30,039 nucleotides of DNA, taken from positions 1 through 30,039 of IMG/VR virus record IMGVR_UViG_3300047300_001113; one strand, 5' to 3'. Positions 3,241 through 10,442 of the stretch are shown in pieces. The notes under the pieces were generated by a model. The model was given only the letters and a program-made list of their open reading frames with translations, did not search any database and was not told where the DNA came from. This DNA comes from a virus. The position numbers and the translations under genes are program-made. Position 1 is the first letter of the stretch. Each line of letters begins with the position of its first letter.

Positions 3241-3560
3241 TACTCACCATCCAACTTGATTGAGTTAGCCCACACTTCACCAGCATCGCCACCCCAAGCA
3301 TCCCAAGCAACCCGACCAGGTGTAGGAAAACCCTTCTCGCCACGAACAAACCCTTCAGCCTTCTTGTCGTTCTGGTGTCGCGCAAAATAGGATCGCATCC
3401 GCTTAATCGTTTCGTCACTGACTTCTTCGCCACGCGCCAACTGACCAGCCCTAGCGCGACCAACAGCAGTGAAACCTTGACCGGCTTTACCATCAGCAAT
3501 CCAAACAAGTGCGCGTTGTGCCGCTTCTTGCACAGAAACAGGTGGTTTATAGGTTGCCAT
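3240..3560 (-). CDS. Conserved phage protein with RMRSYFARH...GRVAWDAWGG motif
   Basis: A 106-aa protein with the sequence RMRSYFARHQNDKKAEGF followed by GEKGFPTPGRVAWDAWGGDAG. I recognise this pattern from many phage and bacterial proteins, sometimes as a domain attached to larger virion or nuclease-like proteins. I cannot assign an activity. The N-terminus (VQEAAQRALVWIADGKAGQGFT) is helical. TAATG overlaps at both ends tie it to its neighbours. Confidence 0.75.
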   Translation of the reverse strand: MATYKPPVSVQEAAQRALVWIADGKAGQGFTAVGRARAGQLARGEEVSDETIKRMRSYFARHQNDKKAEGFVRGEKGFPTPGRVAWDAWGGDAGEVWANSIKLDGE

Positions 3561-6715: not shown

Positions 6716-7939
6716 TTAGTTGGTATCTTCGACAGCGGCAACCATACGCACCGCTTGTGGCAAAGTCACACTATGCATTGAACCAGGTTTTTGTTGTGTG
6801 CTTGCCAAGTTATCGGTGTAGGTGTCGCTCACTGTTGGGGTTGGAAGATTCACTTGCCCCCCCCCTGCTGGTTCAAAAGGAATGTCTTGCAACAGAAAAC
6901 GCAAAGCCAATTCAGCTTGCTGTGGCACAACACCATTACCGCAAGCTTTCAATTCTTCATTCCTAGTCAAACCACAACCAGTAACCCAACCAGCAGGTAA
7001 CCCCATCATCCATTCAGTAAATTCACTGCTCAACCGGTGTGCGCCATCACGCCCATCAGGTTTCGTTGGTGCAGGTGCTGGTCGGCCTAAAACTTTTTCC
7101 CAGCGGCGAATAGCAGGTTCGAACTTACCCCAAGAAGTAAGTTTCACCTGATCTTCAATCCTGCCCTTTGGCGCACCCAACTCAACTTGAACAGCCGAAG
7201 AATCAGCAGCAGTCGCGCGTGGCGTTCCCAACAACACTTCACCGCTATTGAAAATTGCCCGAGCAACAGTATCAGTTTGCACAACACCATCGCGTTGATG
7301 TTCAGCCGATCCGTCTTTGTAATCGCGTGTTGTAGGTGTTGGCATCAAAGCTTCATCTTTCCAATCAATGCCTTCACTCGCCAACCGAACAGCAACACCA
7401 AGTGAAGCACCAGGCATACCCTTAGTTTTACCATCAGTGAAATCTTGTCTGCGTTGCAAATAATCTTCAACAGGTTCATCGTGATTGCGTAAATGCGCCA
7501 CCGCTGGTGTCGGCAACAACTCATTATCAACAACACGCGAAACCTTCAAACCCTGACCAGCAACCAAATCTAAAACCTGATCACGCACACCCACAGTATT
7601 GCCACGCTTCAAAGCTTCAGCTTCACCAAGCGCACCGCCCTGACCTTCACTCGCTTTGGGGGAACGCAACAATGAAGATTCGAAACCTGCTGTGTGGTGC
7701 GCCGGCATCGGCAGCGCGAACACCTGCCCATTTACAGTCATACCCGAGTTCGGCCAAACTTCCTGCCACAGCACCCAATGCCCGCAAAGAAGGTTCATTT
7801 GATCCGTCACCCAAACACCACTCGCACTGTTCCAAGTCGCTATGGGCTGCCGCTGAAAGGATGCCCCTAACATTTTCGATAACGACAAGTCTTGGTCGCT
7901 GTTCTTCAATAGCTCTTGCGAACTCTGTCCATAAACCAC
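6716..7939 (-). CDS. C5 cytosine methyltransferase, C-terminal part (TRD, motifs IX-X)
   Basis: A 407-aa frame from GTG. After residue ~90 it shows the LLxTP repeats typical of phage cytosine methylases (LLRSPKASEG, LLPTPAVAH, LMPTPTTRD, LLGTPRATA). It then has KFEPAIRRWEKVLGRPAPAP, FTEWMMGLPAGWVTG and LKACGNGVVPQQAELAL, equivalent to motifs IX and X. It lacks motifs I-VIII, which are in the overlapping frame 7647-8213 (+1 relation). The GTG has a strong SD (GAAGGAAGG, 8-nt spacing), so it could be a separate subunit as in split M.AquI. Otherwise a one-base indel in the G5 run at 7658-7662 broke one gene. Confidence 0.75.
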   Translation of the reverse strand: MVYGQSSQELLKNSDQDLSLSKMLGASFQRQPIATWNSASGVWVTDQMNLLCGHWVLWQEVWPNSGMTVNGQVFALPMPAHHTAGFESSLLRSPKASEGQGGALGEAEALKRGNTVGVRDQVLDLVAGQGLKVSRVVDNELLPTPAVAHLRNHDEPVEDYLQRRQDFTDGKTKGMPGASLGVAVRLASEGIDWKDEALMPTPTTRDYKDGSAEHQRDGVVQTDTVARAIFNSGEVLLGTPRATAADSSAVQVELGAPKGRIEDQVKLTSWGKFEPAIRRWEKVLGRPAPAPTKPDGRDGAHRLSSEFTEWMMGLPAGWVTGCGLTRNEELKACGNGVVPQQAELALRFLLQDIPFEPAGGGQVNLPTPTVSDTYTDNLASTQQKPGSMHSVTLPQAVRMVAAVEDTN

Positions 7940-8213
7940 TTCTAGTTCCTTCCTTCAAACCAGCCCTTTTGCCAGCAAGCGATAAATCTTGGCAGGGAAA
8001 CCCACCAGTCAAAACATCAACTTTTTCTATCTGTGTGAAATCTACCTTAGAAACATCCCGATAATTGGGAACATTAGGGAAATTCTTTTCCAAAATTTTT
8101 GATGGCGCATCATCCCACTCACAATGCCAAACAACTTCACCACCGGTAACAGCAGAAACAGCCAAATCCAAACCGCCATAACCGCTAAACAACGAACCAA
8201 TCTTGATCCCCAT
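7647..8213 (-). CDS. C5 cytosine methyltransferase, N-terminal catalytic part (motifs I-VIII)
   Basis: A 188-aa protein with SAM-binding motif I (SLFSGYGGLDLA, 7-18), catalytic motif IV (GGFPCQDLS, Cys74), motif VI ENV (113-115) and motif VIII (PHSRFRIFIVA, 173-183), then a stop. A complete enzyme needs the target-recognition domain and motifs IX-X, found in the overlapping frame 6716-7939. It would methylate cytosine at a DNA site, probably to evade host restriction; no partner endonuclease is visible. The start overlaps the helicase stop (TGATG) with SD GGATAGGAAACTG. Confidence 0.87.
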   Translation of the reverse strand: MGIKIGSLFSGYGGLDLAVSAVTGGEVVWHCEWDDAPSKILEKNFPNVPNYRDVSKVDFTQIEKVDVLTGGFPCQDLSLAGKRAGLKEGTRSGLWTEFARAIEEQRPRLVVIENVRGILSAAAHSDLEQCEWCLGDGSNEPSLRALGAVAGSLAELGYDCKWAGVRAADAGAPHSRFRIFIVAFPQSE

Positions 8214-9445
8214 CAGTTTCCTATCCTTGAGTAATGGCCTTCAAACTTGAACTGTAAAGTCGCTGTCTGTCCGTGCCTGTTCTTAGCAACATTCAACCAC
8301 ATCACACCAGGTTCTTCCTTCGACCTGTGCAACAAAATCACAACATCCGCATCCTGCTCAATCGAACCCGAATCACGCAAATCACTCATCTTCGGCATAG
8401 ATTCCTTCATTGCTTCAACATTTCGGTTCAACTGTGCCAAAGCAATCACAGGCACATCCAAATCCTTAGCCAAAGCTTTCAACGCACCCGAAACCATCGT
8501 CATTGCTTCGTAACGGTTGCGCCCCGACTGAACATCAGCAATCAAACCCAAATAGTCAATGACTATTGCTTTCAGCGGCACACCCTGCCTTTTGATTGAC
8601 CGCGCAAAGTTGCGGATACTCGCCAACGACTGGTTACCCCGATCATTGATAGTCAAAAGGTTATGCAATTCTGCACCGCGTTCATCAATGCGTTGCTTCT
8701 CAACCTTCCCCAACAAACCCCTGTCTAAAGAATCCATCGGGATAGACAATACTTGCGAAACCAACCGGTTCATCAACTCACGCTTCGACATTTCCAACGA
8801 ATAAAACGCCACAGCACCAGCAACTTCACCCGAAGGCAAAACATTAGCGTTACGCGCCAACCCAAAAGCAGCCTGTAACCCAATCACAGTCTTACCCACA
8901 CCAGGTCGCGCACCAATAATGTAAAGCCCACCCTTACGAAAACCGTTCAATAACTCATCAAGCTTTGTGATCCCCGAACTCGCATTCACAACCACTTCAT
9001 CAAGGCTGGCGCGGTAAGTTCTCAACACCGAAGGCAGATACTCAACTTCATCAGTGACCGTTGTTAGTTGCAACAAATCCAACTGACGATAAGCCGATTC
9101 TAAAACATCATCAGCCGACAAATCACTTGTCGCTTCTTCCAACAACATTGTTCCAGTCTGCGCCAACCTACGCTTCAACGCCGCTTCACGAACCTGCGAA
9201 GCATAATAACCAGCAGTAGCAGCAGTAGGACACTGATTCACACAGTTCGCCAAATAGTTTTGGTCAAACTTTGCAGACATAGAAGGGGAATCAATCGGTT
9301 CATTACCTGCGGCGCGTTTCGCAAACTCGGCCCAAATCTTTTCATTGATTGGTTCGAAAAAGTCTGCTGGTTGCAACTCAACTTCATCAAAGGTGCGAAC
9401 ACCACCCAAAAGAACTGCACCAATAAGGGCTTGCTCAATACTCAC
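8213..9445 (-). CDS. DnaB-like replicative helicase
   Basis: A 410-aa protein with the two-domain DnaB organisation. The N-terminal helical domain (SIEQALIGAVLLGG to about residue 95) includes the FFEPINEKIW segment. The RecA-like C-terminal domain has Walker A GARPGVGKT (178-186), FYSLEMSKRELMNRL, the Walker B region AIVIDYLGLI, and SDLRDSGSIEQDADVVILLHR. It unwinds DNA 5' to 3' as a hexamer at the fork. GTG 9445 is chosen because it overlaps the initiator stop as GTGA; a TTG further upstream lies inside that gene. The pairing with an initiator gene carrying iterons suggests self-directed replication start. Confidence 0.93.
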   Translation of the reverse strand: MSIEQALIGAVLLGGVRTFDEVELQPADFFEPINEKIWAEFAKRAAGNEPIDSPSMSAKFDQNYLANCVNQCPTAATAGYYASQVREAALKRRLAQTGTMLLEEATSDLSADDVLESAYRQLDLLQLTTVTDEVEYLPSVLRTYRASLDEVVVNASSGITKLDELLNGFRKGGLYIIGARPGVGKTVIGLQAAFGLARNANVLPSGEVAGAVAFYSLEMSKRELMNRLVSQVLSIPMDSLDRGLLGKVEKQRIDERGAELHNLLTINDRGNQSLASIRNFARSIKRQGVPLKAIVIDYLGLIADVQSGRNRYEAMTMVSGALKALAKDLDVPVIALAQLNRNVEAMKESMPKMSDLRDSGSIEQDADVVILLHRSKEEPGVMWLNVAKNRHGQTATLQFKFEGHYSRIGN

Positions 9446-10092
9446 TTCACACGATCTTCCGGTTTCACAAACCACTCATCAACAGTCTGCTTCGACAAAG
9501 CACCCTTCGCAAACTTATCAGCGTTACGCATCCAGTTACGAAACCGCGCAGACATATCCTTCACAGTTTTTTCTTTCCCTTCGGCAACCAGGTAATCAAT
9601 CATTGCCGAAACTTCACTTAGCAAATCAGCGTTTGGATACTGATCCCGAAGCTTCGCAAATTCTTCAACAGACGGTTTCCAATGAACATCAAAAACCTGT
9701 TTTTTGCTTAAAGGTTCTTTTGATGGTTCTTTAACGGTTAGTTGGTCAACAGTGTCCACCCTTAATGCCAAATCTGTCCACCCTTGATGTTCAAATTGTC
9801 CACCCTTACCCAAATTGTCCACCCTACCGACAAGCACCCAATAAAGGTTTGATTTGTAACGACCAGGCATAGGGGCAGCGTTTACTTCAACGCTCAATTC
9901 GCCCAACTCAACAAGTTCAGCAACCTTTCGGCGCACACTTCTTTCGCTCATACCGGTTACACGCGCCAGCGTTGCTTCGCTAGGCCACGCACCCCTTTCG
10001 CCCTGATGATCAGCAATAGCCAAAAGAACAAGTTTGGCGGCTGGTGAAGCTTTGCTGTGATTCCAAACAGCAGTCATAACTTCGATAGCCAT
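9442..10092 (-). CDS. Replication initiator-like protein with winged HTH
   Basis: A 216-aa protein. Residues 5-70 form a winged-helix domain of the HTH_36 / phage replication-initiator kind (VWNHSKASPAAKLVLLAIAD, WPSEATLARVTGMSERSVRRK, LVELGELSV). A variable linker holds the iterons (residues ~88-115). The C-terminal segment (HWKPSVEEFAKLRDQYPNAD, then DMSARFRNWMRNADKF) resembles helicase-loader or primosomal C-termini. It lies directly upstream of the DnaB-like gene and overlaps it (GTGA). Binding the internal repeats and loading the helicase, as lambda O/P do, is the inferred role. Confidence 0.78.
   Translation of the reverse strand: MAIEVMTAVWNHSKASPAAKLVLLAIADHQGERGAWPSEATLARVTGMSERSVRRKVAELVELGELSVEVNAAPMPGRYKSNLYWVLVGRVDNLGKGGQFEHQGWTDLALRVDTVDQLTVKEPSKEPLSKKQVFDVHWKPSVEEFAKLRDQYPNADLLSEVSAMIDYLVAEGKEKTVKDMSARFRNWMRNADKFAKGALSKQTVDEWFVKPEDRVK
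9753..9826. repeat. Four 11-bp iterons, candidate replication origin
   Basis: TGTCCACCCTT occurs at 9753, 9775 and 9797, with a one-mismatch copy at 9816; the start-to-start spacing is 22, 22 and 19 bp, about two helical turns. Copies two to four share an upstream AAATT or AAATC. The four copies are read in different codon phases, so the DNA rather than the peptide is conserved. A fifth near-copy (TGTCCACTCTT) lies at 10427. A T/A-rich stretch at 9685-9740 flanks the array. The arrangement matches iteron origins inside phage initiator genes such as lambda O. Confidence 0.72.
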
Positions 10093-10337
10093 TAGAACTG
10101 TCCAGGTTCAAGGTAGCCGAAACGCTCAAGTTGAATCAGTGCCGATTCAAGAACTTTTTGAGGATCGTTATAGCGAGTTTGGTTAGCCAAATAGAAGTCA
10201 GCAGATAAAGCTGAAACATTGTTGAAAATGGTGGCTTTTACTAGAATGCCCAATTCAAGGGCTGATAGGCGTTCATCCAAAATCCATTCGTGGGGGATTT
10301 CGCTAACACCAGATTTTTGGGGTTTTACTAACGACAA
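10092..10337 (-). CDS. Small wHTH-like protein, first gene of the replication operon
   Basis: An 81-aa protein from a TTG start, supported by SD AGAAAGG 6 nt upstream. The middle (IPHEWILDERLSALELGILVK..., then KVLESALIQLERFGYL) resembles a winged-helix replication or DnaD-type domain without its second half. The stop overlaps the ATG of the initiator gene (TAATG). It may be a partner of the initiator or an autoregulator. I cannot assign it further. Confidence 0.7.
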   Translation of the reverse strand: MSLVKPQKSGVSEIPHEWILDERLSALELGILVKATIFNNVSALSADFYLANQTRYNDPQKVLESALIQLERFGYLEPGQF

Positions 10338-10384: not shown

Positions 10385-10442
10385 CACCGCGATTGTTGGT
10401 TATGTGGGCAGGTCATTTCGGTGGCCTGTCCACTCTTTAATT
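10385..10442. other. Intergenic region with small inverted repeats and a stray iteron
   Basis: Contains CCAACA/TGTTGG arms (10381-10399), a GGGCAGG/CCTGTCC repeat (10406-10431) and one iteron-like TGTCCACTCTT at 10427. No gene is visible. The features may extend the origin or regulatory region. Confidence 0.4.

Follow-up and report, generated by a model that had tools for sequence, protein, structure and literature searches.

Gene organization of the locus

The window, that is, the whole stretch of DNA that was analysed (30,039 bp), corresponds to an entire virus record. On its minus strand, a putative replication initiator gene is directly followed by the gene of a DnaB-like replicative helicase.

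9442..10092, minus strand: replication initiator gene, 216 aa (HTH_36, PHROGs, AlphaFold2 model)
8213..9475, minus strand: DnaB-like replicative helicase gene, directly downstream (DnaB_C, E=5.1e-68; DnaB N-terminal domain, E=8.2e-11; phrog_19)

Residues 16-64 of the initiator match HTH_36 (PF13730) with E=1.3e-12 and 47.7 bits, above the Pfam gathering cut-off of 25, and 50 of the 51 members of alignment A5 also match this family at E<=0.01. Among the PHROGs, the protein matches phrog_1032 ("replication initiation protein", E=2.3e-22) and phrog_8540 ("O-like", E=1.9e-19). No match to Phage_rep_O, the lambda O family, was found in Pfam up to E=1, and a RepA_N domain was likewise absent from the Pfam search. 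Because there is no Phage_rep_O match, the window initiator is described here, on sequence grounds, as a protein that appears to work like lambda O and not as a member of the lambda O family. Bacterial genomes searched with the initiator protein yielded no close relative and one weak relative, the PDB sequence search gave no useful match, and the PDB fold search returned only generic winged helices, none of them below E=0.001. The neighbouring DnaB is presumably the partner of the initiator.

Directly upstream, an 81-aa protein is encoded at 10092-10337 (minus strand), and its gene overlaps the initiator start codon. This stand-alone winged-helix-like protein is related to the DNA-binding domains of the type C/D initiators described below (hhalign probability of 94.6%), is conserved in nine aligned copies of the clade regardless of the winged-helix type of the next gene, and may be a regulator or co-initiator. 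A C-5 cytosine methyltransferase is seemingly split into overlapping frames at 7647-8213 and 6716-7939 (minus strand); in the first of them, the Pfam match is limited to the initial half of the model. Since the same split layout is found in the relative L025 (2255-2830 and 2523-3422), the split may reflect a genuine two-part or frameshifted enzyme and not an error of sequencing. The initiator and helicase genes are adjacent in the window, whereas an apparent inserted DNA methyltransferase gene lies between them in L019 (3922-5013); another gene occupies this place in L023 (4372-5004).

The AlphaFold2 model of the initiator was built with 51 sequences and had an overall pTM of 0.42, so only its domain borders were used. 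The model consists of a winged helix (residues 1-90), a disordered linker (residues 91-130) and a helical C-terminal domain (residues 142-194). The pLDDT is 79-93 in most 10-residue blocks of the winged helix and 54 in one block, and falls to around 30, below 50, in the linker between the two folded domains. The recognition helix of the window initiator is SERSVRRKV. The C-terminal helical domain probably recruits the helicase.

9823..10092, minus strand: winged-helix coding part, residues 1-90 (AlphaFold2, HTH_36, alignments A1 and A4)
9511..9669, minus strand: C-terminal helical domain coding part, residues 142-194 (pLDDT 83-91; alignment columns that stay invariant among relatives whose winged helices are unlike)

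Iteron array and A/T-rich tract within the initiator gene

An initial annotation, made from the letters of the DNA alone, had noticed four copies of an 11-mer, one of them mismatched, at spacings of 22, 22 and 19 bp inside the initiator gene and upstream of the DnaB gene, and our scan confirmed this array. The 11-mer TGTCCACCCTT is exact at 9753, 9775 and 9797 and has one mismatch (TGTCCACCCTA) at 9816. On the gene strand, which reads ...VGRVDNLGKGGQFEHQGWTDLALRVDTVD... across the array, the 10-bp core AGGGTGGACA is exact in all four copies, at 9816, 9797, 9775 and 9753. The outer base of the 11-mer varies in relatives, being C, G, T or A, and the mismatch at 9816 arises because this base lies outside the conserved core. 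The core begins at gene positions 267, 286, 308 and 330 (0-based), i.e., in codon phases 0, 1, 2 and 0, and the different phases and peptides reported for the copies (RVD, GGQ, WTD and RVD) were thus verified on the gene strand.

9816..9826, minus strand: iteron 1, TAGGGTGGACA, encodes RVD, core phase 0
9797..9807, minus strand: iteron 2, AAGGGTGGACA, encodes GGQ, phase 1
9775..9785, minus strand: iteron 3, AAGGGTGGACA, encodes WTD, phase 2
9753..9763, minus strand: iteron 4, AAGGGTGGACA, encodes RVD, phase 0
9685..9740, minus strand: A/T-rich tract, candidate unwinding element, immediately past the 3' end of the array in gene-strand orientation (composition)

In all 30,039 bp, it is only in the array that any 10-mer recurs at least three times without mismatch in a span of 110 nt, and the scan of the whole window for equally good matches scattered elsewhere found none. 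When the codons of the initiator gene were permuted among synonymous positions, four copies were reached in 0 of 1000 shuffles. Outside the array, the window contains six single-mismatch copies of the 9-mer GGGTGGACA, approximately the number expected by chance from its length. One of them is the site at 10427 (AAGAGTGGACA), which had been put forward as a fifth copy in the promoter region of the operon. The one-mismatch site does exist, but its role as an operator of the operon was rejected, as it is at chance level in the window and unconserved in the upstream DNA of relatives. For 48 relatives, 600 bp of the DNA preceding the gene were scanned; these 28.8 kb contain 3 single-mismatch matches versus approximately 6 expected by chance, a figure calculated from the motif length.

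The A/T-rich stretch previously noted at 9685-9740 was borne out by composition, the best A/T-rich 50-mer near the array being 9685-9734 with 72% A+T (rank 122 of 29,989 in the window). In the window, with the last iteron as reference, the A+T fraction at +20 to +80 is 0.68-0.70. Over 73 related genes, the mean A+T fraction is 0.43-0.47 in the array, 0.68 at +20 to +60 and approximately 0.50 thereafter; a tract of this kind following the array is characteristic of the family. The GC skew declines across the window with no turn at the array, and it is uninformative on the origin because nearly all genes sit on one strand.

The iteron array encodes residues 90-113, the first of which only touches the edge of the winged helix while the rest lie in the linker, and the A/T-rich tract encodes about residues 114-133. 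According to the model, nearly all of the presumed origin DNA therefore codes for a linker predicted to be disordered. Since the iterons and the A/T-rich tract encode this floppy linker, the DNA could be constrained as a binding site without harm to the protein.

Iterons in related phages

The initiator and the helicase of the window were used as queries against viral contigs. Relatives of the helicase are preceded by initiators that have a common C-terminal domain (e.g., ...RFRTWMRNADKF...DEWFVKPED...) but unlike winged helices, which were divided into types A (window-like), B (with a SERSV[KQ]RDI helix), and C and D (only distantly similar). The linker-coding DNA of types A and B contains clear repeats of its own, that of type C contains short palindromic repeats, and that of type D contains nothing clear. 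Conversely, type A/B winged helices and their iterons are accompanied by several unlike C-terminal regions, and a DnaB gene may or may not lie directly downstream.

A search with the winged-helix alignment gave 225 relatives, the best 80 of which were analysed together with the window (81 genes); some of these 80 loci are contigs already met in the initiator and helicase searches. Among these 81 genes (best 80 of 225 relatives plus the window), at least three iterons lie between gene positions 225 and 430 in 80, all copies are identical over 9 bases in 72, 224 of the 236 gaps between iterons are 21-23 bp, and no iteron matches occur elsewhere in the genes. The synonymous shuffles and this presence in relatives refute chance or codon bias as the source of the array; this reading, with which the chance-level frequency of single-mismatch copies elsewhere (10427 included) would agree, has a practically negligible probability.

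The class of iteron tracks the class of winged helix, as the RRK helix occurs with GGGTGGACA and the [KQ]RD helix mostly with GGGGTGACA; this class-level association may rest on few evolutionary events. A one-residue code, in which residue 54 (R, K or Q) would specify iteron position 6 (G, T or A), fitted 8 sequences and was rejected because the 39 genes with Q54 mostly have T. A pair of the 11-mer TGTCCACCCTT was also discarded as a diagnostic, since among viral contigs it gave one true relative and six contigs with no related initiator there. In L048, L049, L051 and L052 (type A; locus 3258-3332), one or two of the four iterons read GGGTGGCCA or GGGCGGACA, and these variants are possibly weakened or tuned sites. 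Furthermore, AAGGGTGGACA and closely similar sequences recur in both orientations in L009 (13977-14232) and L012 (2424-2681) behind an apparent VapE/D5-like helicase gene, which was called by eye and is unrelated to the window initiator; these repeats are perhaps an origin that a different type of replicon uses and that contains a site resembling the iteron.

Cultured phages and a few further contigs were also compared. The Arthrobacter phages Galaxy and Abidatro have TGGGGTGAA iterons in three phases, with gaps of 30, 22, 22 and 22, at the same place in the gene, and their array was matched by 0 of 200 synonymous shuffles. The distant contig L026 carries CGGAAATCC repeats in three phases beyond all 200 synonymous shuffles, and the linker repeat of the Curtobacterium phage Root is also significant against such shuffles. 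In Cupello and PhluffyCoco, the top-scoring array consists of GAACCGTCC at 11-13-bp spacing further 3', and a 22-bp-spaced ACGGGGTG repeat is visible too. No linker repeat beyond the shuffle control was found in L034, L025, Kels, Swenson and Decurro, so in these few relatives the sites differ in form or the origin lies elsewhere.

Selection on DNA and concerted change

Codon alignments of three groups were used to compare the third positions of conserved degenerate codons inside and outside the iterons. Invariant third positions were found in 14 of 15 iteron codons versus 18 of 96 others in the K-type (21 sequences, P=3e-8), in 8 of 9 versus 17 of 102 in the A-type (6 sequences, P=2e-5) and in 6 of 12 versus 2 of 63 in the Q-type (31 sequences, P=1e-4), where the P-values are descriptive and ignore the relatedness of the sequences. 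The iteron columns are defined by pattern, but every sequence that has the conserved residue enters into the fractions, which limits circularity. An arginine-codon count inside iterons defined by a regular expression was circular and is superseded by this alignment-based test. In addition, the iterons change in concert. All four copies in L022 read GGGGAGACA, the result of a T-to-A change that replaces V with E three times and leaves the encoded RGD of the remaining copy unaltered; the L022 copies thus read AGGGGAGACA where its relatives read AGGGGTGACA. Concerted changes are also present in L057 (CGATGTGACA in four copies) and L121 (TGAGGTGACA in five).

The repeats could alternatively be a feature of the peptide, namely, a repetitive linker whose codons repeat by happenstance. 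The copies of Q-type relatives, which are 21 bp apart and mostly encode GVT in one phase, would fit this explanation. However, more than one codon phase is used in 46 of the 81 genes (the window and 45 others; best 80 of 225 relatives plus the window), the copies encode unlike peptides (RVD, GGQ and WTD; GVT and RGD), the synonymous sites within the iterons are frozen, L022 alters the same DNA base in every copy regardless of the effect on the amino acid, and the linker is predicted to be disordered. The phase and synonymous-site tests refute a peptide repeat for the window, and in general it is a highly improbable explanation. The iterons are under purifying selection as DNA, not as peptide. 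The frozen synonymous sites, the concerted change and the three codon phases thus sustain the original proposal that selection acts on DNA, and across relatives the DNA repeat is retained while the peptide changes, not the reverse.

Exchange of the winged helix together with its repeats

The relatives L022 (type B) and L023 (type C) were compared along the gene. Ahead of the start codon, blocks of 50 nt are 92-100% identical, and identity is 92-98% in the C-terminal part, but it is 28-48% over approximately the first 440 nt of the gene, a part covering the winged helix and the iterons. Overall, this amounts to about 95% in the two flanks and about 40% between them. The winged helix, the repeats and the A/T-rich tract were swapped together between the two lineages; the DNA-binding domain and the repeats, its presumed target, would thus make up a single exchangeable cassette. 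The repeats of type C are short palindromes, CGGAAAAACCG-like in L023 and TGGAAAATCCA-like in L021, and the case for an origin is weaker for type C because all of its repeats share one phase.

The sharp breakpoints, one coinciding with the start codon and the other following the linker, mark the gene as a hot spot of module exchange and would be compatible with an array that is a recombination, packaging or partition site merely hosted by the initiator gene. In contrast to this explanation, the breakpoints are found at the cassette borders and not inside the repeats. Within each gene, the class of the repeats is also associated with that of the winged helix, and reading of the array by some other protein would not account for this association. 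A hosted site of this kind is accordingly considered very unlikely.

Proposed mechanism of replication initiation

Based on the sequence comparisons and the analogies described below, the segment is very probably a phage replication origin within its initiator gene, the iterons of which are bound by that initiator. The interpretation given in the initial annotation was supported, except for the fifth copy at 10427. The winged helix of the initiator may bind the four 10-bp iterons (AGGGTGGACA), which are spaced approximately two helical turns apart. The adjoining A/T-rich tract could then melt, and the C-terminal domain may bring in the DnaB helicase, the product of the adjacent phage gene, at the melted DNA. 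By analogy, binding by the phage's own initiator, strand opening, helicase loading and the start of replication at the array are the most likely course of events.

Alternatively, the initiator may bind the iterons for autoregulation or as an intragenic transcriptional roadblock and not for replication initiation, as the sites sit within the protein's own gene and the nearest PDB folds of the winged-helix initiator are mostly transcription regulators. However, the sites are located 270-340 nt into the gene and not at the promoter, no conserved upstream copy occurs in relatives, the conserved A/T-rich tract lies on one side of the array only, at least four regularly spaced sites are typical of origins, and the DnaB gene follows in the clade of the window. 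A regulatory role in place of initiation is therefore unlikely.

Comparison with known systems

The kind of system proposed here has been known since lambda. The ori of lambda, made up of four O-binding iterons and an AT-rich tract, is situated midway through gene O (PMC7466680), so the precedent of lambda O invoked in the initial annotation was apt. When in-frame deletions remove DNA from the AT-rich portion of ori, the resulting lambda O alleles are still functional in trans, and the part of lambda O encoded by this DNA is thus dispensable (PMC6022878). Lambda O/ori (and its Stx phage relatives) and the window have in common the number of iterons (four), the adjoining A/T-rich tract and the helicase-related gene that comes after the initiator gene. 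On the other hand, the iteron sequence of lambda differs from the 10-bp core of the window, the window protein has no Pfam match to the lambda O family, and the next gene in lambda encodes the loader P, whereas that in the window encodes the DnaB helicase itself.

The domain plan of the window initiator, with a winged helix, an origin-encoded linker and a C-terminal domain, matches that of the RepA_N initiator of pSK41, one of the staphylococcal plasmids. In pSK41 RepA, the N-terminal winged helix recognises four Rep boxes in the central part of rep, the linker specified by this origin DNA (residues 121-199) is not needed by the protein, and the C-terminal domain contacts the replication machinery and binds the primase DnaG (PMC5703833). 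In contrast to this plasmid-encoded RepA_N protein, the window initiator is an HTH_36 protein of a phage, and the putative partner of its C-terminal domain is the DnaB helicase.

A direct precedent for the exchange between L022 and L023 is the pPR9/pUSA03 hybrid, in which a pfam13730 N-terminal domain and its origin are found in a pSK41-like rep gene; approximately 500 bp comprising the N-terminal domain and the origin were exchanged, and the C-terminal domain stayed (PMC5703833). The N-terminal domain belongs to the same Pfam family as that of the window (PF13730, HTH_36), and the exchange is of the same kind. However, pPR9 is a staphylococcal plasmid, whereas the exchange described here occurred between phage lineages and is accompanied by concerted change of the iterons.

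Significance for the phage family

To our knowledge, the replication origins of most environmental phages are unknown. No description of actinophage iterons of this family was found in the open-access literature, and the family of these origin-in-initiator phages is apparently undescribed. What is added here is a large phage family that displays selection at the DNA level, concerted change and cassette exchange together. In 80 of 81 genes (best 80 of 225 relatives plus the window), the initiator sequence itself reveals a candidate origin, and the variants that change all iterons at once make the specificity between initiator and origin directly testable. Galaxy, Abidatro and other cultured relatives are open to laboratory tests.

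As proposed for pPR9, a swap of the roughly 440-bp cassette would change the protein and its target together (PMC5703833), which suggests a route by which phages may leave origin-based interference or incompatibility. It seems somewhat more probable than the contrary that, throughout this large phage family, whose cultured members are mostly on Arthrobacter, the winged helix and its own origin constitute a swappable cassette, the specificity of which evolves in concert across the iterons while the disordered linker tolerates the residue changes. If this is true, the origin and its incompatibility class would be readable from the initiator gene in many uncultured phages.
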